Positions 3,593 through 16,185 of a stretch of DNA of 64,000 bases are shown piece by piece; the stretch's first letter is position 1, and every line of letters starts with the position of its first letter. Origin of the DNA: Verrucomicrobiia bacterium (GTDB lineage Bacteria > Verrucomicrobiota > Verrucomicrobiia > Verrucomicrobiales > Akkermansiaceae); assembly GCA_947462875.1 (NCBI GenBank), contig CANHQJ010000002.1:186001-250000 (forward strand). Direction: 5' to 3'. The translations under genes were made by a program, and so were the position numbers. A model generated the notes under the pieces. That model saw only the letters and a program-made list of their open reading frames with translations, was not told where the DNA came from and did no database searches.

Positions 3593-4255
3593 ATGAAGAG
3601 TAGCATCACCCGCATGCAGAGCAAAAAAATCCGCGTGATGCTGGCTGACGACCATGCTGTGGTGCGCCATGGATTTAGCATGATTCTTGCGGCCGAGTGG
3701 GATATGGAGGTGATCGCCGAAGTATCAAACGGACGCGAGGCTTTGGAAGTGGGGGAGAAACTCAAACCTGATGTCTGCGTGATGGATGTTACGATGCCGG
3801 AACTCAATGGCATCGAGGCAACGCGGCGCCTGGCGGCCGTCTCGCCCAAAACGCGGGTGTTGGCGTTATCGATGCACAAGGATTCCGTGTATGTCCGCGA
3901 AATTCTCCGCGCGGGAGCCAAGGGCTACCTGCTGAAGGACAGCAGCCCCAAGGATTTTCTCAAGGCCGTGAGAACCGTTGCCGTGGGCAGAGGGTTTTTG
4001 AGTCCGGAGGTGAGTGAAACGGTGCTGGATGACTACCGCAAGCACGTCACCAATCCCATCGATCTTCTCACCAGTCGCGAGCGCGAAGTGCTGCAACTGA
4101 TCGCGGAGAGCAAAACCAACAAGGAAATCGCCAGCGCACTCAATCTGAGCGTATACACCGTGGAGGCGCATCGCGGCAGAATCATGGAAAAACTCAACCT
4201 GCACAGCATTGGCGAGCTTGTCAGGTTCGCCGTGCGCAACGGGCTGATCGATTGA
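3593..4255 (+). CDS. NarL/FixJ-family response regulator
   Basis: This is a two-domain DNA-binding response regulator. The receiver domain has the acidic pair D19-D20, the phosphoacceptor D65 in the VMDVTMP motif and a conserved lysine in LLKDSS. A LuxR-type helix-turn-helix follows (about residues 150-215), with LTSREREVLQLIAES and the recognition helix around SVYTVEAHRGRIMEKL. The start could be the ATG at 3593 or the ATG at 3614 directly before the receiver domain. A longer frame opens at 3515, but its extra residues look non-coding. The sensor kinase gene follows 25 bases downstream and is the obvious partner. The target genes cannot be read from the sequence. Confidence 0.92.
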   Translation: MKSSITRMQSKKIRVMLADDHAVVRHGFSMILAAEWDMEVIAEVSNGREALEVGEKLKPDVCVMDVTMPELNGIEATRRLAAVSPKTRVLALSMHKDSVYVREILRAGAKGYLLKDSSPKDFLKAVRTVAVGRGFLSPEVSETVLDDYRKHVTNPIDLLTSREREVLQLIAESKTNKEIASALNLSVYTVEAHRGRIMEKLNLHSIGELVRFAVRNGLID

Positions 4256-4280
4256 ATCAATTTTCTCACCAAAAGCAACT

Positions 4281-5585
4281 ATGGCACGTACCTTGGGCGA
4301 TACCAATCAACGGGTGGTGACACGAATCATCCTTACGGGATTCGGTCTGGTCTTGATCATTCTGGGGGTTGCCGCGCTTGTGGCCGTGCGCGACAAGCAA
4401 ATCCGGCGCAGTGCCATGATGTCCGTCAAGAATCACTTGATCTATGCGCAACTCTTGAATGAAGTCCAGGCGCAAGAGGACATCCTTTCGCTGGGGCTGC
4501 ACCGGATCCGGAATCACGCGGATCGAGACGAGAAACAGGCGAGATGGCAGGATCTGGTTCGCGCGGATCAGACACTCAGGCAACTCGCGGGAGAGGCGGC
4601 TCACTCGACTCAAGCCGATGAGTGGCAGCGTTTGGCGGAAGCATCAAACCGCTTTACGGAAAAGGCGACCATGGTGCTGAAAGATCAGGATACCGTGGAT
4701 GGAGAGGCGATGGATGAACTCTTCGCGCTGCATGACAGGGTCGTGAAAATGATTCACGACATGATCCAAATCAACATCCAGGACTGGGCGGCCACGGATG
4801 AACAGATGCGTGTGGAACTCGATGATTTGACCAATCAATCGACGATCATGTTGAGTTCCTGTTTTCTTCTCGCCTTTGTGTTTGCAGGTTCCACGGTGAT
4901 GATCGTAAGGAAAAGCATCCAGCGGATCGAGTGGCAGCGCGATGAATTGAATCGCGTGTCATGGCACATGCTCCAGACGCAGGAGGACACCGCGCGCCGG
5001 TTTTCTCATGAACTCCACGATGAGCTGGGGCAGTCACTGGCGGCGGTGCGGGCGAATCTCACCCATCCGTCACTGATGAAGGAGGAGCAACGGGATGACT
5101 GTCTGCATTTGGTGGATGAAGCGATCGCCAACGTGCGCGAGCTTTCGCAGTTGTTGCGTCCGGTGATTCTCGATGACTTCGGACTGGAGGCCGGGTTGCG
5201 CTGGTTGACCGAGCGTTTCGGTCAACGCACGCGCATTTTCGTGGTTTTTGATGGTGCGGCTCCGGGGCGGATCCATCCTGAGACGGAGACGCACTTGTTC
5301 CGCATCGCGCAGGAGGCGCTTACCAATATCGCAAGACATTCCCAGGCAACAGCTGTCAAAGTGAGTCTGCTGCAGGTCGAAGGCGATCTGCTCCTGTGCA
5401 TTGAGGACAACGGCGTGGGGCTGCCTTTGCAAAGCCAGGAAAACGCGAGCAGTCTGGGGATCATCGGCATAAGGGCACGCGCGAGGGAATGTGGAGGAAC
5501 GGTGATTCTGGAAAACATCAAACCGCATGGTCTTCGCCTGACGGCGAGAGTGCCGAAGCGTCCCGCCGCCAGGTTAGAGCCATGA
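4281..5585 (+). CDS. Sensor histidine kinase, HisKA_3 (NarX/UhpB-like)
   Basis: This 434-residue membrane sensor has transmembrane helices at about residues 16-36 and 188-210. They flank a mostly helical periplasmic sensor region of about 150 residues. The HisKA_3 dimerization box reads F-S-H-E-L-H-D-E-L-G, with H246 as the phosphorylated histidine. The ATPase domain has an N box (RIAQEALTNIARHSQ), a G1 box (EDNGVGLP) and a second glycine region (LGIIGIRARARECGG). HisKA_3 kinases normally pair with LuxR-type regulators, and one lies immediately upstream. The ligand is unknown. The sensor region could bind a small molecule directly or through a partner. Confidence 0.93.
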   Translation: MARTLGDTNQRVVTRIILTGFGLVLIILGVAALVAVRDKQIRRSAMMSVKNHLIYAQLLNEVQAQEDILSLGLHRIRNHADRDEKQARWQDLVRADQTLRQLAGEAAHSTQADEWQRLAEASNRFTEKATMVLKDQDTVDGEAMDELFALHDRVVKMIHDMIQINIQDWAATDEQMRVELDDLTNQSTIMLSSCFLLAFVFAGSTVMIVRKSIQRIEWQRDELNRVSWHMLQTQEDTARRFSHELHDELGQSLAAVRANLTHPSLMKEEQRDDCLHLVDEAIANVRELSQLLRPVILDDFGLEAGLRWLTERFGQRTRIFVVFDGAAPGRIHPETETHLFRIAQEALTNIARHSQATAVKVSLLQVEGDLLLCIEDNGVGLPLQSQENASSLGIIGIRARARECGGTVILENIKPHGLRLTARVPKRPAARLEP

Positions 5586-5599
5586 ATTGCGGTTTCCGT

Positions 5600-6328
5600 C
5601 TAAAATGAGATGCTGGACATCAGCCACAGCACCCCGGTGTGGTTTTGTTCCCAGATGCCGCCGCCACGGCGCTGGATGGTCTGCTCCATGAATCCCAGCT
5701 CCACTTTGGTGACGTCGTTGATCTTGTGTCCGATGCCGATAAAGGCGCGGTTTTGATCGAAGTCATTGCCGTCGACATTGGTGCCGAAATTGAAGAACAC
5801 CTCATCGGAGAGAGCCAGGTAGGTTTTTTTGGAAGCTGTTAGAGGGATGGTGGTGCGCAGCATGTAGCGGAGGCGGTTTTCGTAGCGCCAGTGCTCGGTA
5901 TTCCAGTCGCCACCGGCAAACTGTGCCATTTCACCGATCCATCGTTGCTCGAGACGCAGTCGATGCGTCCAGTCCAGACCTAGCCAAGACGTCGTGTGAG
6001 ACACCTGCTGCCAAAGCCGGTGTTCGGGAAATTCATTCGCCGCCGGGTAGTCGCCGTAGGGGTAGCTTTCCACATGGCAGTAGCCGAAGGAGAGCATCGT
6101 GCTCGGGTTAAGCTGGTAGTTCAGGCCCGGGCGCAACAGCAGTTGCTGGCGATCGTCGCCCAGGTCCGAGCGGCGCTCCTGCGCTTCCAGGTGAACGCCC
6201 CAAGGTGAGCCTACGATCGGATGGTCTCCGACATAATTGAGCCACAAATTTCCATTGGAATCTTGTTTGTCTGCAAGACAGGGAAGACTGCTTGCGCCGA
6301 TGAGTATGAGAGTGAGTAAGTTTTTCAT
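5600..6328 (-). CDS. DUF2490 family outer-membrane-like protein
   Basis: The 242-residue product begins MKNLLTLILIGASSLPCLA, a clear signal peptide. The ATG at 6328 was preferred over an upstream in-frame start at 6397, which would overlap sulP. The mature part alternates aromatic and polar residues in short strands and ends in phenylalanine (SSISF), as expected of an outer-membrane beta-barrel. It matches the general pattern of DUF2490, a barrel family of unknown function. It starts only 10 bases after the sulP stop, so it is probably co-transcribed. It could be an outer-membrane pore serving the same substrate; that is inference from position alone. Confidence 0.8.
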   Translation of the reverse strand: MKNLLTLILIGASSLPCLADKQDSNGNLWLNYVGDHPIVGSPWGVHLEAQERRSDLGDDRQQLLLRPGLNYQLNPSTMLSFGYCHVESYPYGDYPAANEFPEHRLWQQVSHTTSWLGLDWTHRLRLEQRWIGEMAQFAGGDWNTEHWRYENRLRYMLRTTIPLTASKKTYLALSDEVFFNFGTNVDGNDFDQNRAFIGIGHKINDVTKVELGFMEQTIQRRGGGIWEQNHTGVLWLMSSISF

Positions 6329-6338
6329 AGAACCAAGA

Positions 6339-7955
6339 TTATACGCGTTTGAATCGGGCGGCTTCCGGGTGCGGTGACACAGGGGTGTGATCGTCAAGAC
6401 CTTCGATGATCAGCTCGCGGTTTTCGAGTTTCCAGTCTTGTGCCATTTCCTGCAATTTTTTGTAAACGGTATGATCGACAAAATGCGCATCGGACAAATC
6501 GATCTTCACCGTGATGTGCTCGCTCATCGCCAGAATGCGCTTGCGCAGGGGCAGCCAGTTGCTGAATACCACGGATTGGGACACGGTCATCACGGGAATG
6601 CCGTCTGTCTCCTTGATCGCCACTTGAGGGCGGAACAGGTTGCCCACCGAGGTGCCTGCGATGGCATGAAGAATCAGCTTCACCAGAATGCCCGCGGCGA
6701 TGCCGATCAGAAGGTCGGTGGCCAGCGTGGCGATCATCGTGACGAGGAAAACGAGGAGTTGCCCTTTGCCCACGTGCCACATGTGGACGAATTCTTTGGG
6801 GGATGCCAGATTGTATCCCGTGAACACCAGCATGCCGGCCAGGGCGGCCAGGGGAATGTTGTTGATCAGCCATGGCACCGAGGCCACGAGGACGAGAAGA
6901 AAAGTGCCGTGCCAGAAATTCGCCCATCGGGTGCGCGCGCCGTTGTTGCGGTTGGCGCTGGAGCGCACGATCTCGCTGATCATCGGGATGCCGCCGATGA
7001 AAGAGACGAGCGTATTGGCCACACCTACGGCAAACAGATCGCGGTTCAGATCGGTGCGGCGCTGCCATGGATCGAGGAAATCCACCGCCTTCGCGCTCAG
7101 CAGCGACTCCAGCGTGCCCACCAGCGAGAACATCACCAACCACTTGAGGCTTGCCATCGAGGTGATGGCGGAAAAATCCGGAAACTTGATACCGCTGAGC
7201 ATGTTCATCGGCAGCGATACCAGATACTTGGGTCCGACCTGATACTCATGGCCCTGGAAATGATAGGTATGTTCGTTTTTGATACCGAAATACAATGCCA
7301 TGGGCGTCGCCACCATGAGCACCAGCATGGGGCCAGGAATGGCCTGCACGAGCTTGTGTTTGAAAAACAGGCGGCCGAACAAAAGGCAGACGGCGACGGC
7401 TCCGATGAGGGCGATTTCCGGATTCATGTGGGCGAAGCTGTGCGGGATCTCCGCGAGAAGCTCCAGCGGCTCTTTCGCATGGGCGGAGACACCGAGCGCG
7501 ACGTGGATTTGTTTGGAAATGATGATGACGCCGATCGCCGCCAGCATGCCGTGCACTGCCGCCACGGGGAAAAATTCACCGAGCGTGCCCCACTTCAGTT
7601 TGCCGAAGATGATCTGGATCAACCCCGAGGCGACTCCCACGGCGAGAGCCTTTTCATAGCCCAGCTCCTGCACGCAGCCGAGCACGATGACAATCATGCC
7701 AGCGGCGGGACCTTTGATGGTGAGTTCCGAATTGCTGATCCACGGTGTCAACATGCCGCCGATGATGGCGGTGAAGATCCCGGCGATGGGCGGGACTCCC
7801 GAGGCGATGGAAATGCCCAGACACAGCGGCAAGGCGATCAGGAATACGAGGAATCCCGATAGCATATCTTGTCGCAGATTCTGCTTCATACCCTTCAGGT
7901 TTCCCACGGGCGTGGGTCCTGCGGACGGTTTTGTTAGGTTGTTTGGTGATGACAT
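6339..7955 (-). CDS. SulP family anion transporter (likely bicarbonate or sulfate)
   Basis: This 538-residue protein has the SLC26/SulP layout: a hydrophobic domain of many helices from about residue 25, then a short cytoplasmic STAS-like domain (about 440-520). Family signatures are [19 protein letters not shown] in the first helix, the loop [17 protein letters not shown], and [11 protein letters not shown] preceded by ISEIVRSS. The ATG at 7955 gives a normal N-terminus; the longer frame to 8402 overlaps dabA on the other strand and is rejected. SulP proteins carry sulfate, bicarbonate or other anions. Divergence from a DUF2309/DabA operon across a shared palindromic region suggests bicarbonate; that substrate is inferred from context, not seen in the sequence. 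Confidence 0.9.
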
Positions 7956-8015
7956 GGTGGTTGGATGATGTTCCGTAACGCTGCTGAAAGTAGCAGGTCG
8001 TGCGGGAAAAATACC

Positions 8016-8094
8016 ATCCCCTCCGCAGGGTAAATTTAGCCCCTGCGAGGGGGTCCCCCCCCCGACCAGTGTGAATATACCCTGCGGAGGGGAT
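8016..8094. promoter_or_regulatory. Inverted repeat in the sulP-dabA divergent promoter region
   Basis: A perfect 17-base element, ATCCCCTCCGCAGGGTA, lies at 8016-8032, and its exact reverse complement lies at 8078-8094. Between them, at about 8038-8054, is a related imperfect copy with the core CCCCTGCGAGGGG. The three copies are centred near 8024, 8046 and 8086, spacings of 22 and 40 bases, close to two and four helical turns. The position between two divergent transport operons suits operator sites for a regulator that controls both. A hairpin in the dabA leader is an alternative. The regulator is unknown. Confidence 0.6.
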
Positions 8095-8135
8095 AGGATT
8101 TGAGCCGATGTTTTGCTACGATGCCCGCACTCACC

Positions 8136-11069
8136 ATGAACCACAGCGAACATTCCCACGGCACCGCTTGCGCTTGCGAGCACCATGCGGCTCAGAAATC
8201 GCCGGCGGCGTTGCTGCACCACGCGCTGGAGCATGCCACCCACTACCTGCCCGCGCAAGGCCCGATCGGTGTGTTTGTCCATCACAACACCTTGCATGCG
8301 TTCCAACACATGCCGTTCGAGCAAGCCGTGGTGAAGGCGGCGGAAATTTTTGACGCGGAGCCGTATCTTTCCGAGCAGACCTATCAGGAGCATCGGCAAC
8401 ACGGACGCATTCTCGATCAGGACATCGATGCCGTCCTGGCCCGCGAGCCGGATGCCGTTCTGTTAGGGGGGCGCCTGACCCGCAGGGAGCTGCGCCGTGT
8501 GTTGCTCATTCCCGGTGTGCGCAGGGTCAATCACGGCAATCTCACCTGGCAGATCGAGGAGGGAAATTTCCTCAGGGAATTTCGCCACGACCTGCCTCCC
8601 ACCGCGGCCAGAGCCCTCGCCTCGGACCAGCCAGATCGCTTGTGGCCCGTGTGCACCAGCCGATACAAGGTCGCGCCGGTGGCTGCGCCGCAGCAGCCGT
8701 CGCGCCCTGCGGAAACCGTTCAGGAAAGCCACGGCATCGCTCTCGATGAAGTGGTCAATCCCGTGCTGGTGCGCTTGGTGAGTTCCTACCTCGATCAAGG
8801 TCTGGCCTACTGGCCGATGCCGGATCGCGAAATCGGTTTTCTCGGAGCCTCGCGCGCTTTGTTCACCTCCACCTGGCTCAGTGATTGGCCCGTGCTTCTG
8901 CGCGGCATTCGCGGTGAGTTTGAGCGCCTTGCGGATCAAAGCGCGCAGGATATCGTGTTGGATCTTCTGGCCGGATTCGGCGTGCCGGAGCAGGACTGGG
9001 AGGCGCTGATCCGGCAGGAGCTGCTGTCGCTGCCCGGATGGGCCGGTATGATCCATTGTCTGGAAGTGGATCCGTTGCTGGCTCCTCATGAACGTCCCTC
9101 GTTCTCCTTGATGGAATTTCTTGCCGTGCGCCTGATCCTCACGTCGGTGGTGCTGAAAAACGTGACGGGTTCGATCACCGAGTGGCGCAGTCATCCGGTC
9201 GGTGCCATGGCCTACCACGATCCACTCACCCACCAGGCCCGCTTGTTCGATGCCTGCCAATTGTTAGGCTATCACAGCGAGTTGTTAGCGGGTCTGAGCG
9301 AAACGGAGTTCGATGAACTTTGTCATGAACTGGAGTTGTGCAACGAATGGGAGCGCCGCAGGCTGCTGCATCTCGCTTATGAACTGCGCCACGAACGCCG
9401 GATTCTCATTCCGCTGTCGCGCCATTGCGCCATGCCGGCGGTGGTGGAGAAATCCGATCGACTCGAGGCGCAGGTGGTGTTCTGCATCGATGAACGCGAG
9501 GAATCGATCCGTCGCGCGCTGGAAGAGGTGGAGCCGCTGATCGAAACCTATGGTGCCGCGGGATTTTTCGGCTGCGCGGTGGATTACACCGGACTCGATG
9601 ATCCGCACGGCGTGTCGCTTTGTCCGGTGGTGGTGAAGCCGGCCCACCAGGTGGCGGAGATTGCGGTGGAGGAGGATCATTCCCTGGGTCATGTCCGCCA
9701 GAAGGCCCGCCGCACTTGGGCGAAACTCACACGCACGGCCAGCATCGGCAGCAGGACTTTGGTGCGCGGCACGGTGAGCACGGCGTGCCTGGGATTTCTC
9801 AGTCTGTTTCCGATGGCCTTCCGCATTCTGGCCCCGCTGCGTTTTGCGCGCATCATGGAGAAACTGAATGCGTTTTTTCTTCCGGAACCGCGCACCGAGC
9901 TGCAGTTCATGCGGAATGACGATGAGTCGCGCCACGCCACCACCGGGCTGCTCTCCGGTTTCAGCATCGCGGAAATGGCGGATCGTGTGGCGAACATGCT
10001 GCACCCCATGGGCATGACCAAAGGCCACGCGCGCCTGGTGGTGGTGTTGGGGCATGGCAGCAGCAGCCTCAACAATCCGTTTGTCTCCGCCTATTGTTGC
10101 GGTGCCTGCGGTGGCAGATCCGGCGCGCCGAATGCCCGGCTCTTCGCTTTGATGGCGAACAAGTCTGAGGTGCGGACCTTGCTGCGCGAGCGCGGCATTA
10201 TGCTGCCGGAAGACACCTGGTTCATCGGCGGCTATCACGATACGTGCAGCGATGATGTCGAGCTCTTTGATACCGATCTGATGCCCTCCTCGCACGCGAC
10301 CGATCTGGTGAAATTGCGCGGAAAACTCGATGAAGCCCGCGCCCGTGCGGCCCATGAGCGCACCAGACGTTTCGAGTCCTTCAACAACCATCGCTCGGTC
10401 AGCGCCGCGCTGCGTCATGTCAAGGAACGGTCGGTTCACCTCGGCGAACCCCGCCCGGAGTATGGCCACTGCACCAACGCGGTGGCGGTGGTGGGACGGC
10501 GTTCCACCACGCAAGGTCTGTTCCTCGACCGCCGGGCGTTTCTCGTGAGCTACGATGTCAAGAATGATCCGGAAGACCGCTATCTCGCTGCCGTGCTCGG
10601 CGCGGTGATCCCCGTTTGTGGCGGCATCAATCTGGAATACTACTTCAGCACGGTGGACAACGAGCGCTATGGCTGCGGCACCAAACTTCCGCACAACATC
10701 AGCGGTCTGTTAGGCGTGATGAACGGCTACCAAGGCGATCTGCGCACGGGCCTGCCCCTGCAAACCGTGGAAATCCACGAGCCGGTGCGCATCCTTTTTG
10801 TGGTGGAAACCACGCCGGAGCGGGTGCTGGCGGTCATTCATGCCAATCCTTTGCTCAAGGAGTTTCTGGAAAACCGCTGGATCCGTCTGGCGGCGATCGA
10901 TCCCGATCACGGCGGTATCCAGGTCTATCGCGGCAATGGCGTGTGGGAGGAACTGAGCGGAGACGAGGAACCGCTGCCCATCGCAAAAAGCTCCATCGAT
11001 TACTACCGCGGCAAGAGCGAACACCTGCCCCTGGCCCGCATCAGCCCGCAACTTCTCACCTCCGCCTGA
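8136..11069 (+). CDS. dabA: DabA-like inorganic carbon accumulation subunit (DUF2309)
   Basis: This 977-residue protein belongs to DUF2309/DabA, the carbonic-anhydrase-like zinc protein of DAB bicarbonate systems. The four zinc-site residues known for the family can be placed: C450 and D452 in F-C-I-D-E-R-E, H640 in G-H-G-S, and C655 in the cysteine-rich Y-C-C-G-A-C-G-G. The 15-residue spacing from H640 to C655 matches that recalled for the Halothiobacillus protein. The ATG at 8136 is preferred; ATG 8121 and TTG 8100 are possible. The N-terminus is rich in His and Cys. Two NuoL/NuoM-like genes follow at once, as expected for a cation-coupled partner. The product should sit on the cytoplasmic face of that membrane complex. 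Confidence 0.92.
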
Positions 11070-11079
11070 AACGATTTTT

Positions 11080-12447
11080 ATGAATGCCACCGCATTGTTT
11101 TTTGTCATTCTCGGGCTTCCGCTCGCGACCTTTTTGCTGCTGGGAATCTCCTGGATGCTGGGATTCAGCGCGGGGGAAAAATGCATCGGGCGAACGATCA
11201 AGACGATCTACTCCCTGATGTTCCTGGCGTTCCTCGCACTCTCGTGGATGCTCTATCAGGATGCCGATCACTCGATCGAAATCCATCTGGGGCAGTGGTT
11301 CGTGCTCGATCACTATGAATATCCGATGGCGTTCCAATGGGATGCCGTCACGATGCCGTTTGCGGGGCTGACCATCATTCTGAGCGGAATTGTCGGTTCA
11401 TTCAGCATCACTTACCTCCACCGCGATCCCGGCTTCCTGCGCTTTTTCCTGCTGCTGGTGCTGTTTTCCTTCGGCGCGCTTCTGGTGTTCACGGCGAGTT
11501 CGCTGGATTTGCTCATCGCCGGCTGGGAGCTGGTGGGCATCACATCGGTGATGTTGATTTCGTTTTTCCAATATCGCCCGGAACCCGTGCGCAATGCCCT
11601 GCGCGTTTTCGCCACCTATCGTGTCGCGGACCTGTTCATTCTTGTTTCGGTGTTTCTCGCACATCAATGGTTCGGTGCGGCCGACTGGGCGAGGTTCCGG
11701 GAAATCGCGCTGGACGCCGGTGTGGCGGGTGTCAGTCCGGCAATGATGACGATTTTTCCGATCCTGATCGTCTTTGCGGCCAGTGGCAAATCCGCACAGG
11801 GTCCGTTTTGCGGATGGCTGGCGCGTGCGATGGAGGGCCCCACTCCGTCCAGTGCGATTTTCTACGGAGCCATCTCCGTGCACGCCGGCCCCTATCTGCT
11901 CTTGCGGGCCGAGCCTCTCATTCGCCAATCGCCGCTTGCCACGGGTCTGCTCTGTTTCATCGGTCTCACCACCGCGGTGCTCAACACGATGATGCAACGC
12001 AGCAGTTCGGATGCCAAAACCTCGCTGGCCTATGCCTCGCAGACGCAACTGGGCATCATCTTCGTCGAGATTTCCCTGGGATGGCACACTCTGGCCCTGA
12101 TCCATGTGATGGGCCACGCGATCGTGCGTGCCATGCAGTTTCTGCGCTCGCCCTCGATGCTCAGCGACTACCACCGCCTGCATTCCGGCGCGGGTGGCGA
12201 GCTGCGTGCCACCGGTGCCCATTACGATCGAATCGTGCCGGACCGTTGGCAGCGCATCCTCTACTGCTTCACCCTGTTCCGGGGCTTTCATGACGCTCTC
12301 TGGGATCGTTTGCTGATCCGTCCCATGTTCCTGATCGTCAGACTGGTGGAAAAAATCGAACTTTCCCCCTCCAAAAACAAGACGCCCCGGCGTGCCGGCA
12401 CTTCTTCTCCGGAGCTCCCCGTGCGGGCCAAACGCGAAACCATCTAA
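11080..12447 (+). CDS. DabB-like proton-conducting membrane subunit (NuoL family)
   Basis: This 455-residue multi-helix membrane protein is homologous to complex I/Mrp antiporter subunits. The helix-5 glutamate is present as E150 (IAGWELVGITSVMLI) and the helix-7 lysine as K237 (SGKSAQ). The later GPTPSSAIFYGAISVHAG stretch matches the conserved NuoL GPTPVSALIHAAT region, with the histidine position changed. The start is 10 bases after the dabA stop. In DAB systems this type of subunit supplies the cation gradient that drives DabA. At 455 residues it is shorter than NuoL, and its C-terminus is a charged tail rather than extra helices. Confidence 0.88.
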   Translation: MNATALFFVILGLPLATFLLLGISWMLGFSAGEKCIGRTIKTIYSLMFLAFLALSWMLYQDADHSIEIHLGQWFVLDHYEYPMAFQWDAVTMPFAGLTIILSGIVGSFSITYLHRDPGFLRFFLLLVLFSFGALLVFTASSLDLLIAGWELVGITSVMLISFFQYRPEPVRNALRVFATYRVADLFILVSVFLAHQWFGAADWARFREIALDAGVAGVSPAMMTIFPILIVFAASGKSAQGPFCGWLARAMEGPTPSSAIFYGAISVHAGPYLLLRAEPLIRQSPLATGLLCFIGLTTAVLNTMMQRSSSDAKTSLAYASQTQLGIIFVEISLGWHTLALIHVMGHAIVRAMQFLRSPSMLSDYHRLHSGAGGELRATGAHYDRIVPDRWQRILYCFTLFRGFHDALWDRLLIRPMFLIVRLVEKIELSPSKNKTPRRAGTSSPELPVRAKRETI

Positions 12448-12459
12448 CGCTTTTTCATC

Positions 12460-13860
12460 ATGTTCTCCGATCTTTCCCTGCCCTTTCTCTCCTCCGGCTT
12501 GCTCCTGTTGATCGCCGGTGCCATCGCATGCGCACCCCGGTTTCAGTTGCGTTCTCCGCGTCGCATCGCCCTTGGTTTTCTCGGACTGGCTCTTTTGCTC
12601 TTTTTGGCCGCCTTTCTGAAAATCCAAAGCCAGGACGAAAAGATCTATCTTGATCCGCTTCTGCCGTGGTTGGAAACGGACACCGTTGATGGCCTGCCGC
12701 TGGTGGTGTTCACGCTGGTGGCGATCATTTCCGTATGCCTCGCGCCGCGCAGGGATGTGAGGGGCTCCTCCCTGTCGGGAATATTGCTGTTGGTGACGGG
12801 CACGACACTCGTCTACACGTCAGCCCACTGGGTGACGTTGAATCTGGGTTGGTGGCTGACCTGCGTCCCCTTTGTGACCGGCATGTTCGGACCGAGTGAG
12901 GACCGCAAGCATACCAGCATCGCTCTCGTCGCCAGCGCGTTGATGCTGACCATCGCCACCGCTCTGCTGCACGCGTCACAAGTCGCGAGCTTGTCCACCA
13001 TCTCCCGTGGCAGTCTGGTGTTTTTTCTCCTCGCGGTGGTGATGCGCAAGGGCTTGTTTCCGCTGCACTCTTGGACGCTGCGTGCGTTTGAAAGCGGTCC
13101 GCTGCTGCCCAAGTCCCTGCTTTTCAATTCCCATCTCGGCGCCATGTTGGTGGCGCGTGCCGAGAGCTCGCATTTGCCCGATTTCGCCCACCAGGTCCTG
13201 TATGGATTGAGCCTGCTGGCCCTGGTGACCGCCCTGATCACCAGTCTGCGCGGATTGACGGAGAAAAAACCCCGCCGCCTGATGGGCCTTGTCTGCATCA
13301 GCCAGGCGAGTTTCATTCTATCGGGATTGCTGGCTTCGAACTCCGCGGGAATCATGGGCGGCATGCTGCACTGGATGGTGGTGGCCCTGGCATCCACCGG
13401 GTTGATCGCGGTGGTGCGGATACTGGAAGTGCGTGTCATCGATGTGGCCGACCCCACGGCGCACCTCGGACTCGCGGTCAGAGCCCCGCGTCTCGCGACA
13501 TTCTTTTTGCTGTCCGGCCTGGCGCTGGTGGGCCTGCCCGGAACTCTGGGCTACTGCGCGGAAGATTTGCTGTTTCACGGCGTGCAGGATCATCATCCTG
13601 TGATGGGTGTGTTTCTGCTGATCGCCACGGCGCTCAACGCGATCAATCTGATGCGGCTGTACAGCGTTCTCTTTTTGGGAGTATTGCCGAAAAACGTCAT
13701 CGAGATCCCCGATGCCCTCCCGCGCGAGCGCTGGCCTCTCACGCTGGTGGTGATGATCCTCATCGCCGGAGGCTTATTTCCCTCCCTGCCCATTTCCCTG
13801 AGAAACAAAGCGGTGAAAACCTTCCACCTCAGCGCTCCGGATTCATCCCATCATGAGTGA
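12460..13860 (+). CDS. Second NuoL/NuoM-like proton-conducting membrane subunit
   Basis: This 466-residue polytopic membrane protein lies 12 bases after the previous gene. It keeps the NuoM-like motif M-R-K-G-L-F-P-L-H-S-W, with K197 at the helix-7 lysine position, and a GLPGTLGYCAEDLLF stretch. The helix that normally carries the key glutamate reads NLGWWLTCVPF, with tryptophans at W131-W132 instead of Trp-Glu. It may therefore have lost half of the proton path, or serve as a structural second subunit. Classical DAB operons have a single DabB, so this three-gene form is a variant. The start is a clear ATG. Confidence 0.85.
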   Translation: MFSDLSLPFLSSGLLLLIAGAIACAPRFQLRSPRRIALGFLGLALLLFLAAFLKIQSQDEKIYLDPLLPWLETDTVDGLPLVVFTLVAIISVCLAPRRDVRGSSLSGILLLVTGTTLVYTSAHWVTLNLGWWLTCVPFVTGMFGPSEDRKHTSIALVASALMLTIATALLHASQVASLSTISRGSLVFFLLAVVMRKGLFPLHSWTLRAFESGPLLPKSLLFNSHLGAMLVARAESSHLPDFAHQVLYGLSLLALVTALITSLRGLTEKKPRRLMGLVCISQASFILSGLLASNSAGIMGGMLHWMVVALASTGLIAVVRILEVRVIDVADPTAHLGLAVRAPRLATFFLLSGLALVGLPGTLGYCAEDLLFHGVQDHHPVMGVFLLIATALNAINLMRLYSVLFLGVLPKNVIEIPDALPRERWPLTLVVMILIAGGLFPSLPISLRNKAVKTFHLSAPDSSHHE

Positions 13861-15192: not shown

Positions 15193-16080
15193 TTACTCCG
15201 CCACGCTCTGAGCGGCCGAAATGAGCGCGCGGGTGGATTTTTTCAGGCCTTTTTCACGCCAGGCGATGGCGACGTGAAAAGGCTCGGGGGCAGGGGACAG
15301 AGGCCGGTATTGCAGGCGCGGGCCGCTGAAGCAACTGAGACTTTTGGAAACAAGGGCGACGCCACGTCCGCTCTCGATGGCGGTGATCAGGCTGGTCATG
15401 CTGTCATATTCTTCGGCGAGAACGGCTTTTTTCTGCGTGGGGCGGCTGAGGGTTTCGAGCCATTGGTGATACTCGGCGTAGTCTTGCCGGTTGTAGCCGA
15501 TGAGGCGGTGGGTGAATAATTCGGAGAGAGTGATCTTGCGTTTTTTCGCCAGTGGATGATGGGCGGGCATGGCAACGCAGACGGGGTGGCTTTGCAGCCT
15601 CGCGTAGGAAAGATCGCCGCGCTGGGGTTTTCGCGGCAGGGCGAGGAACGCGGCTTGCAAGGAGCCATCGCGCAGGCCTTGCTGCATCTCGCCGCTGGAG
15701 AGGTCGTGCAGGCGCACGCGCACGAGCGGTTGTGTTTGTTCGAAGACGCGCAGGATCTGCGGCAGGATCTGCACGGATAAGGACGGCGCGTAGCCGACAT
15801 CGATGACTTGTTGGTGATCGTCCGAGAGCGCCTGCACGGTTTGCAACGCTTGCGCGGCGCGCTCCAGCACGGCGCGCGCCTCGACGAGGAAGACTTTGCC
15901 CGCGGCATTGAGTTGCAGGGATTTCCCGGTGCGATCAAATAATGGCAGGCCGAGCTCTTCTTCGAGATCGTGGATTTGGCGGCTGAGGGGCGGCTGTGAG
16001 ACGTGCAGACGCTCCGCCGCGCGGGTGACGTTTTCCTCTTCCGCTACGGCAATGAAGTAACGCAAATGGCGCAGTTCCAT
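15193..16080 (-). CDS. LysR-family transcriptional regulator
   Basis: This is a 295-residue LysR regulator. The N-terminal winged helix-turn-helix (MELRHLRYFIAVAEEENVTRAAERLHVSQPPLSRQI) is canonical. The effector domain runs from about residue 90 to 290. The ATG at 16080 is chosen because it places MELRHLRYF at the N-terminus; a longer frame starts at 16122. The gene is divergent from a pirin and an FMN-reductase gene, the usual LysR arrangement with its target. An ATAC-N7-GTAT palindrome lies 14 bases upstream of its start. The inducer is unknown; quinones or other electrophiles would suit the neighbours. Confidence 0.93.
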   Translation of the reverse strand: MELRHLRYFIAVAEEENVTRAAERLHVSQPPLSRQIHDLEEELGLPLFDRTGKSLQLNAAGKVFLVEARAVLERAAQALQTVQALSDDHQQVIDVGYAPSLSVQILPQILRVFEQTQPLVRVRLHDLSSGEMQQGLRDGSLQAAFLALPRKPQRGDLSYARLQSHPVCVAMPAHHPLAKKRKITLSELFTHRLIGYNRQDYAEYHQWLETLSRPTQKKAVLAEEYDSMTSLITAIESGRGVALVSKSLSCFSGPRLQYRPLSPAPEPFHVAIAWREKGLKKSTRALISAAQSVAE

Positions 16081-16093
16081 AAGGATTTTGACA

Positions 16094-16108
16094 ATACCTA
16101 AAAAGTAT
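16094..16108. promoter_or_regulatory. Candidate LysR T-N11-A operator box
   Basis: The sequence ATAC-CTAAAAA-GTAT is an interrupted palindrome with the T-N11-A spacing typical of LysR-type binding sites. It lies 14 bases upstream of the lysR start, within the intergenic region shared with the pirin gene. A TTGACA at 16088-16093 abuts it. This is a standard position for autoregulation and divergent activation. Confidence 0.5.
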
Positions 16109-16185
16109 GCCAAAGCAAGCAAAATGGTATTTCCGCTTTTTCCACATTGACGCTAGTTTGAGTCGTTCACAGAAAAATCAATCTC

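Follow-up and report, generated by a model that had tools for sequence, protein, structure and literature searches.

A conserved operator-type element between divergent sulP and dabA genes in Verrucomicrobia, with a nearby candidate two-component regulator

Introduction

What controls the two divergent, probable carbon-uptake units headed by sulP and dabA in a Verrucomicrobial genome? To our knowledge, inorganic-carbon sensing and uptake control are poorly known outside the autotroph models. The DNA analysed here (the window) is a stretch of 64,000 nucleotides from Verrucomicrobiia bacterium, assembly GCA_947462875.1, contig CANHQJ010000002.1, positions 186,001 to 250,000. From its letters it had been proposed that an inverted 17-base repeat between sulP and dabA, together with a third, imperfect copy, forms a three-site operator that switches both units, possibly in response to CO2/bicarbonate, through a factor encoded elsewhere. 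The features of the region are as follows (window coordinates).

3593..4255, plus strand: NarL-type response regulator (Response_reg + GerE), candidate binder of the sites (domain search, co-occurrence)
4281..5585, plus strand: HisKA_3 histidine kinase, candidate partner (domain search, neighbourhood comparison)
5600..6328, minus strand: DUF2490 protein between kinase and sulP (domain search, neighbourhood comparison)
6339..7955, minus strand: sulP (Sulfate_transp + STAS; ORF list, domain search)
7987..7992, minus strand: predicted -10-like hexamer of sulP, TACTTT (A+T-rich block +21 to +26, weaker)
8014..8032, minus strand: proximal sulP site TACCCTGCGGAGGGGATGG, spacer 7, including the first 17-mer (pattern match and sulP-side alignment)
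8040..8054, minus strand: distal sulP site, the middle copy of the original prediction (sequence; CC/GG columns 22-23 bp upstream in 26 sulP promoters)
8055..8070, plus strand: putative degenerate distal dabA site, CC there and GG partly (position from the relatives' alignment)
8078..8096, plus strand: proximal dabA site TACCCTGCGGAGGGGATAG, spacer 7, including the second 17-mer (40-locus table)
8117..8122, plus strand: predicted -10-like hexamer of dabA, TACGAT (T-rich block +20 to +25 past the site)
8136..11069, plus strand: dabA (ORF list, domain search)
11080..12447, plus strand: dabB-like gene (Proton_antipo_N/M), NuoL-like (ORF list, domain search)
12460..13860, plus strand: second dabB-like gene (Proton_antipo_M), NuoL-like (ORF list, domain search)

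In many relatives the DUF2490 gene likewise lies between the kinase gene and sulP, or beside them, and its product may be a member of the uptake system. The genome also encodes a second, distant DabA (G000:C15:14799-16691, 38% identity), near which no exact site was found.

Results and discussion

The repeat in the window

The 17-mer ATCCCCTCCGCAGGGTA occurs exactly at 8016-8032 on the plus strand and at 8078-8094 on the minus strand, in the opposite orientations that had been described. With up to three mismatches allowed, these are its only two matches in the window; in 100 shuffles of the window the mean was 0.11 matches and none reached two. The whole genome (3,954,095 bases) contains two exact copies, both between sulP and dabA, and at three mismatches four more places were found, against three matches of a reversed control pattern. 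Both 17-mers are contained in an imperfect palindrome (8009-8101) with 45-nt arms that are 76% complementary. At 8041-8053 the middle copy, CCCTGCGAGGGGG, differs from the 13-mer core in two positions, but such matches number four in the window against 3.3 expected, so that taken alone it is no better than chance; the sole ground for giving it meaning is that a second copy is conserved in the promoters of relatives.

All three copies fall between the start of sulP (7955, minus strand) and that of dabA (8136, plus strand), confirming their location in DNA common to both operons. Of the three distances, two agree with the predicted helical-turn spacing: the outer sites are 62 bp apart from centre to centre (5.9 turns) and the middle copy is ~22-23 bp (~2 turns) from the sulP-side site, but its distance to the dabA-side site, ~39 bp, corresponds to ~3.7 turns. 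The repeat is real and looks functional.

Conservation upstream of dabA and sulP

Scanning genome contigs for DabA yielded 24 loci, mostly Verrucomicrobial by record title. Many of the genomes are metagenome bins, and the titles Bryobacterales (L081) and Blastocatellia (L090) may reflect binning errors or transfers. The upstream DNA of the relatives' dabA genes was found to have a common site, TACCC-N7/9-GGGATRG, of which the 17-mer is the core. On the dabA side, ATACCC-N6..10-GGGATRG was scored from 150 bp before dabA to 45 bp inside it. Among 40 regulator-bearing dabA loci the site was exact in 32, at one mismatch in 5, at two in 2 and at three in 1; two mismatches or fewer were thus seen at 39 of the 40 loci, against 10 of 800 composition-preserving shuffles. 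Eighteen of the loci (the window, L069-L083, L088 and L091) were known when the pattern was written. The core TACCC..GGGATRG was set before the other 22 were fetched, and the leading A was added after viewing those 22. These loci, outside the motif definition, gave 18 exact sites, 3 at one mismatch and 1 (L229) at three, so that 21 of 22 lie within one mismatch. Five control loci (L085, L087, L089, L092 and L090) had 3 to 5 mismatches; in L090 dabA sits behind sulP.

The 40-locus set comprises 37 of the order's 40 DabA genomes, examined upstream, plus L073, L081 and L225. Dropped before the count were L202 (upstream DNA cut), L084 and L086 (DabA N-terminus missing), G354 (the C-terminal part of DabA alone) and G427 (DabA 43% identical, upstream not fetched). 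By coordinates or sequence, L183-L185, L190, L196, L204-L206 and L208 were treated as duplicates of L071, L079, L072, L074, L075, L080, L091, L076 and L082. The dabA genes of G323, G384 and G335 (L198, L199 and L205) each carry one in-frame TGA, from sequencing error, decay or recoding.

On the sulP side, scored with the TACCC pattern and without a shuffle control (as were the SulP-iota-CA genes below), 28 loci gave 7 exact sites, 11 at one mismatch, 8 at two, 1 at three and 1 (L207) at four. The spacer is 7 bp in nearly all sulP-side sites and mostly 9 on the dabA side, where the window's genus and a few others are exceptions (7 or 8, twice 10). In L090 (700-860), where sulP and dabA are in tandem, a site-like GATCCC-N7-AGGGATAG lies ~50 bp before sulP, and the regulator is 71% identical; cross-phylum transfer or mis-binning is possible.

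Three genomes are instructive as to what is kept. G249 retains sulP, dabA and both sites, with different letters within each arm. G252 has no divergent sulP (a 75% identical sulP is convergent downstream, cut by the end of the locus), and its dabA-facing site is at one mismatch with a second copy alongside. G263, the genome of L072, has dabA, sulP and the regulator pair spread over three contigs, and an exact site is found both at dabA and at the separate sulP (72% identical). This is explained by a trans-acting factor and not by a local hairpin. Absence of the repeat from close relatives with the gene pair had been named as grounds for abandoning the operator; relatives keeping the sulP-dabA pair have retained the site.

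Genome-wide, the exact pattern does not exceed its reversed control in number, which implies that few promoters at most are involved. In the window's own genome it has at most one exact match besides these two promoters, at C15:78211, so that the regulon predicted there is very small. The gapped exact pattern gave 55 matches in 24 whole genomes against 51 for the reversed control, i.e. no enrichment, with 15 of the 55 preceding dabA or sulP by coordinates. In a further search of 17 genomes it gave 26 matches against 61, at least three preceding a SulP-iota-CA-like gene and at least one a dabA fragment (L242 and L250 left out). The 17-mer itself, at two mismatches, has matches in 94 of the 260 genomes of the window's family, mostly scattered, as were those of the reversed control; one, in G252, lies upstream of dabA.

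Promoter anatomy

To describe the dabA promoters, 31 having spacer 9 and no more than one mismatch were aligned on the GGGATRG end, which makes the site columns conserved by choice of pattern. Outside that choice, A at -23, C at -16 and A at -9 are each present in 31 of 31. A distal copy lies 22-23 bp upstream (CC at -40/-39 in 31 and 29 of 31, GG at -30/-29 in 30 and 22 of 31), and downstream T is found at +20, +21 and +25 in 25, 28 and 29 of 31, resembling a -10. The sulP promoters (n = 26, spacer 7) are organised alike: the CC columns are kept in 25 and 26 of 26 and the GG columns in 24 and 23 of 26, and there is an A+T-rich block at +21 to +26 that is weaker than at dabA. The plan of each promoter is thus a strong proximal site, preceded at 22-23 bp by a weaker distal copy and followed after ~20 bp by a -10-like block; no conserved -35 is evident in the aligned promoters. 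As the two-site layout is shared by the sulP promoters, the middle copy can be assigned as the distal site of sulP.

Taking the block as the -10 would put the centre of the proximal site at about -44 and that of the distal site at about -66. With these predicted starts the layout is that of a Class II activator-dependent promoter, a site lying next to the -35 position at constant distance and near the -10. In the window (8117-8138) the -10-like block would leave dabA a leader of ~5-9 nt, and several relatives are similar; either the dabA mRNA is indeed almost leaderless, or the block is not a -10.

The distance between the two proximal sites, determined at 28 loci, is 60-62 bp in 16, 64 in 1, 39.5-153 in 8 and 523-1924 in 3, the values for L207 and L229 being based on weak sites. 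With so variable a distance, joint action across the gap is not required, and the 60-62 bp spacing may be ancestral or a help to cooperation. The proposed control of both units by one operator is thus sustained to the extent that a conserved operator-type element is present at sulP and at dabA, even on separate contigs; its three-site form is better read as two two-site promoters back to back, the dabA genes of relatives having a distal copy of their own. From its sequence conservation, the element is a genuine pair of conserved operators serving two units that probably take up carbon.

A candidate regulator and kinase

The statement that no regulator gene is adjacent needs correction, as a candidate is encoded close by: a response regulator and a kinase at 3593-5585, one gene beyond sulP. 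The regulator contains PF00072 (REC) and PF00196 (LuxR-type/GerE HTH), both above cut-off, and PF07730 (HisKA_3) was found in the kinase. The phospho-acceptor D65 is invariant in 17 regulators, and H243 and H246 in 19 kinases; the HTH part of the same regulators and the core of the same kinases are largely invariant and the sensor half of the kinase is variable. The structural model of the kinase (pLDDT 76.5, pTM 0.37; moderate) suggests a helical sensor half, and the best 50 matches listed in a fold search are all, by title, kinase parts and signalling proteins.

The regulator, the kinase or both are near dabA, within the fetched stretch, in 12 of the 17 relatives' loci that defined the motif, the regulator being 76-87% identical in those 12 and DabA 52-74% over all 17. 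A regulator orthologue of at least 76% identity is present in 17 of 17 genomes behind the motif, and one of 71% in G281 (the genome of L090). At E ≤1e-50 no regulator was found in the genomes of L085, L089, L092, L084 and L086 (in the last two the dabA start is off the contig), and the L087 genome has a match of 52% at best. Among the 260 genomes of the family, some DabA homologue is present in 22 and an orthologue (at least 73%) in 3; at E ≤1e-80 the regulator is found in exactly those 3. In the order (386 genomes) the regulator is present in 57 and DabA (E ≤1e-180) in 40, all within the 57, leaving 17 regulator-positive genomes without DabA by that cut-off. For these cut-offs, chosen in this analysis, exact tests that ignore shared ancestry gave P = 3.5e-7 (family) and 3e-41 (order); the co-occurrence could come partly from joint inheritance. 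The regulator is retained even where it is on another contig (G263, G264 and G260). Neither the regulator's nor the kinase's own promoter has a site at one mismatch or fewer. The regulator is linked to the sites by co-occurrence and linkage, and on these grounds the NarL-type regulator (3593-4255) is most likely their binder.

A likely link to carbon

The regulator neighbourhood was fetched for all 17 regulator-positive genomes of the order without DabA by cut-off. One (L225) has a dabA fragment with the site at a contig end. Several encode a 611-aa protein in which SulP is joined to a CaMKII_AD domain (domain scan in L224); this fusion matches PDB 3h51 and ends in HHSS at its C-terminus, which is the motif given for iota-carbonic anhydrases in a passage of PMC8425729. 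With a CaMKII_AD/NTF2-like domain and HHSS, the fusion partner is a putative iota-carbonic anhydrase (iota-CA). In L214, L217-L221 and L224 the fusion is followed by an SPFH/Band7 gene and adjoins the regulator pair, without this DabA; identities to L224 are 79-95% for the fusion and 90-98% for the SPFH/Band7 gene.

Seven copies of the SulP-iota-CA-like gene with full upstream DNA are preceded by the site, 2 exactly, 3 at one mismatch, 1 at two and 1 at three, the last two carrying, by eye, a GGCTAT variant. As the best matches at the regulator and kinase promoters have at least two mismatches, only those of these sites with no more than one mismatch are clear. The genome-wide pattern revealed an eighth copy, its site exact, on another contig of G431, and in L221 and L241 two tandem site copies precede the gene. 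A SulP-beta-carbonic-anhydrase (SulP-beta-CA) fusion (PF00916 + PF00484, domain scan) is encoded in L213 (8139-10418). Its gene is there flanked by those of the regulator and kinase, as are homologues found by tblastn in L216, L076 and L080 and, broken, in L227; in L223 such a fusion is beside regulator and kinase. No clear site of their own was found for the SulP-beta-CA fusions, and in L211 and L212 the regulator has no recognisable carbon gene near it.

Because these fusions recur beside the regulator or the site, the recurring partner is CO2/bicarbonate handling. The suggested response to CO2/bicarbonate gains support from this association of SulP-CA fusions with the site or the regulator cluster, which backs the carbon signal without proving it; the signal itself we infer.

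Proposed mechanism and alternatives

The arrangement that we regard as probable is one of divergent activator-dependent promoters whose tandem sites are bound by regulator 3593-4255 under control of the kinase. One promoter would serve sulP and the other dabA with the two dabB-like genes, each having two tandem sites for one protein, a strong one near -44 and a weaker one near -66 from the predicted start. The kinase (4281-5585) would switch the regulator, which when phosphorylated would bind beside the -35 position and recruit RNA polymerase, turning both uptake units on together, most likely upon CO2/bicarbonate shortage or a proxy for it. Regulator binding and activation, as opposed to repression, are deduced, like the signal, from sequence comparison. 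A wider proposal, which we put forward tentatively and think rather less likely than not to be correct in full, is that the kinase is a membrane sensor of CO2/bicarbonate and that kinase, regulator and TACCC-N7/9-GGGATRG sites form a dedicated inorganic-carbon regulon of these Verrucomicrobia, governing whichever uptake module a species has (DabAB with SulP, SulP-iota-CA or SulP-beta-CA).

The operator could be real and yet be bound by another transcription factor encoded elsewhere, the response regulator being merely a passenger of the island. Linkage alone can yield co-occurrence, a clear site is missing from the regulator promoter and 17 regulator-positive genomes are without this DabA, but the regulator is kept together with dabA when on other contigs, no LysR is conserved beside dabA and the genome has no CsoR-family gene; we consider such a factor unlikely. 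It is also fairly improbable, and slightly more so, that the regulator represses by blocking both promoters: a site by the -35 position could hinder polymerase too, but tandem sites before a -10 without a conserved -35, as found here upstream of the -10-like block, are more typical of activation.

That the working element is an RNA or DNA hairpin (an attenuator, terminator or structured leader) might be supposed because the predicted fold of the strand, as DNA, is much stronger than that of shuffles (z -6.3). Single sites persist, however, when the other arm is on a different contig, and at dabA genes without a divergent sulP (L070, L072, L075, L076, L080, L082 and L091), and the distance between arms ranges from 39.5 to 1924 bp; an Rfam search gave three microRNA families alone, all below gathering scores. 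A hairpin thus seems very improbable, and a dispersed REP- or MITE-like repeat is scarcely credible, for although the element is palindromic, G+C-rich and intergenic, its position is fixed in relatives and the exact 17-mer is absent elsewhere in the genome, where a REP element had been the original prediction's own alternative.

Two further candidates were rejected. A CsoR/RcnR-type operator would need a PF02583 gene, and none was found in the genome (0 of 1; control search positive in 6 of 14). As for a LysR/CbbR-controlled operon, the LysR of the window (15196-16080) has matches of at most 27%, in 3 of 24 loci, and is not conserved beside dabA. Downstream of the dab genes (15193-16122), this LysR-type gene is preceded by one for an alpha/beta hydrolase.

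Comparison with known systems

Among the papers listed in searches of the open-access literature, none dealt with this operator or with control of dabA by a two-component system, and the terms operon, LysR and transcription do not occur in the main text of the DAB2 structure paper PMC13144422. The regulator resembles those of the NarX/Q-NarL/P systems in having REC and a LuxR-type HTH, and VraR and NarL are among its nearest relatives of known structure. The left half-site, TACCC, is like the start of the NarL heptamer consensus TACYYMT, as given in a passage of PMC4886647, but TACYYMT is not found in both half-sites (TACCCTG in the window, TATCCCC/CCATCCC on the other side). The likeness being limited to the left half, the sites are not called NarL sites; they differ further in half-site spacing, TACCC and GGGAT being 7 or 9 bp apart, and in serving carbon uptake targets rather than nitrate. 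The relatives' fusion shares the CaMKII_AD domain and HHSS end with the iota-carbonic anhydrases, as these are described in part of PMC8425729, and differs in that the putative enzyme is fused to a SulP transporter.

The kinase core is like DesK and VraS, among the best 50 matches listed, and the regulator is nearest to VraR, but the sensor half and the targets differ from those of DesK-DesR and VraS-VraR. The regulon would be new and its parts familiar, and a strong candidate for its regulator is encoded close by. With the operator defined, a sensor-regulator pair proposed and a small regulon predicted whose recognised members point to CO2/bicarbonate, a small control circuit dedicated to carbon uptake is now open to direct testing. 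The findings also suggest that different uptake modules are able to share one circuit.

The regulators of carbon uptake CmpR, NdhR/CcmR and CbbR are LysR-type. Their control resembles that proposed here in being exerted on a small regulon for inorganic carbon uptake, and differs in that the candidate here is a two-component pair and no LysR is conserved beside dabA. If the proposal is correct, these Verrucomicrobia would have a two-component carbon circuit, unlike the LysR-type circuits known from autotrophs.
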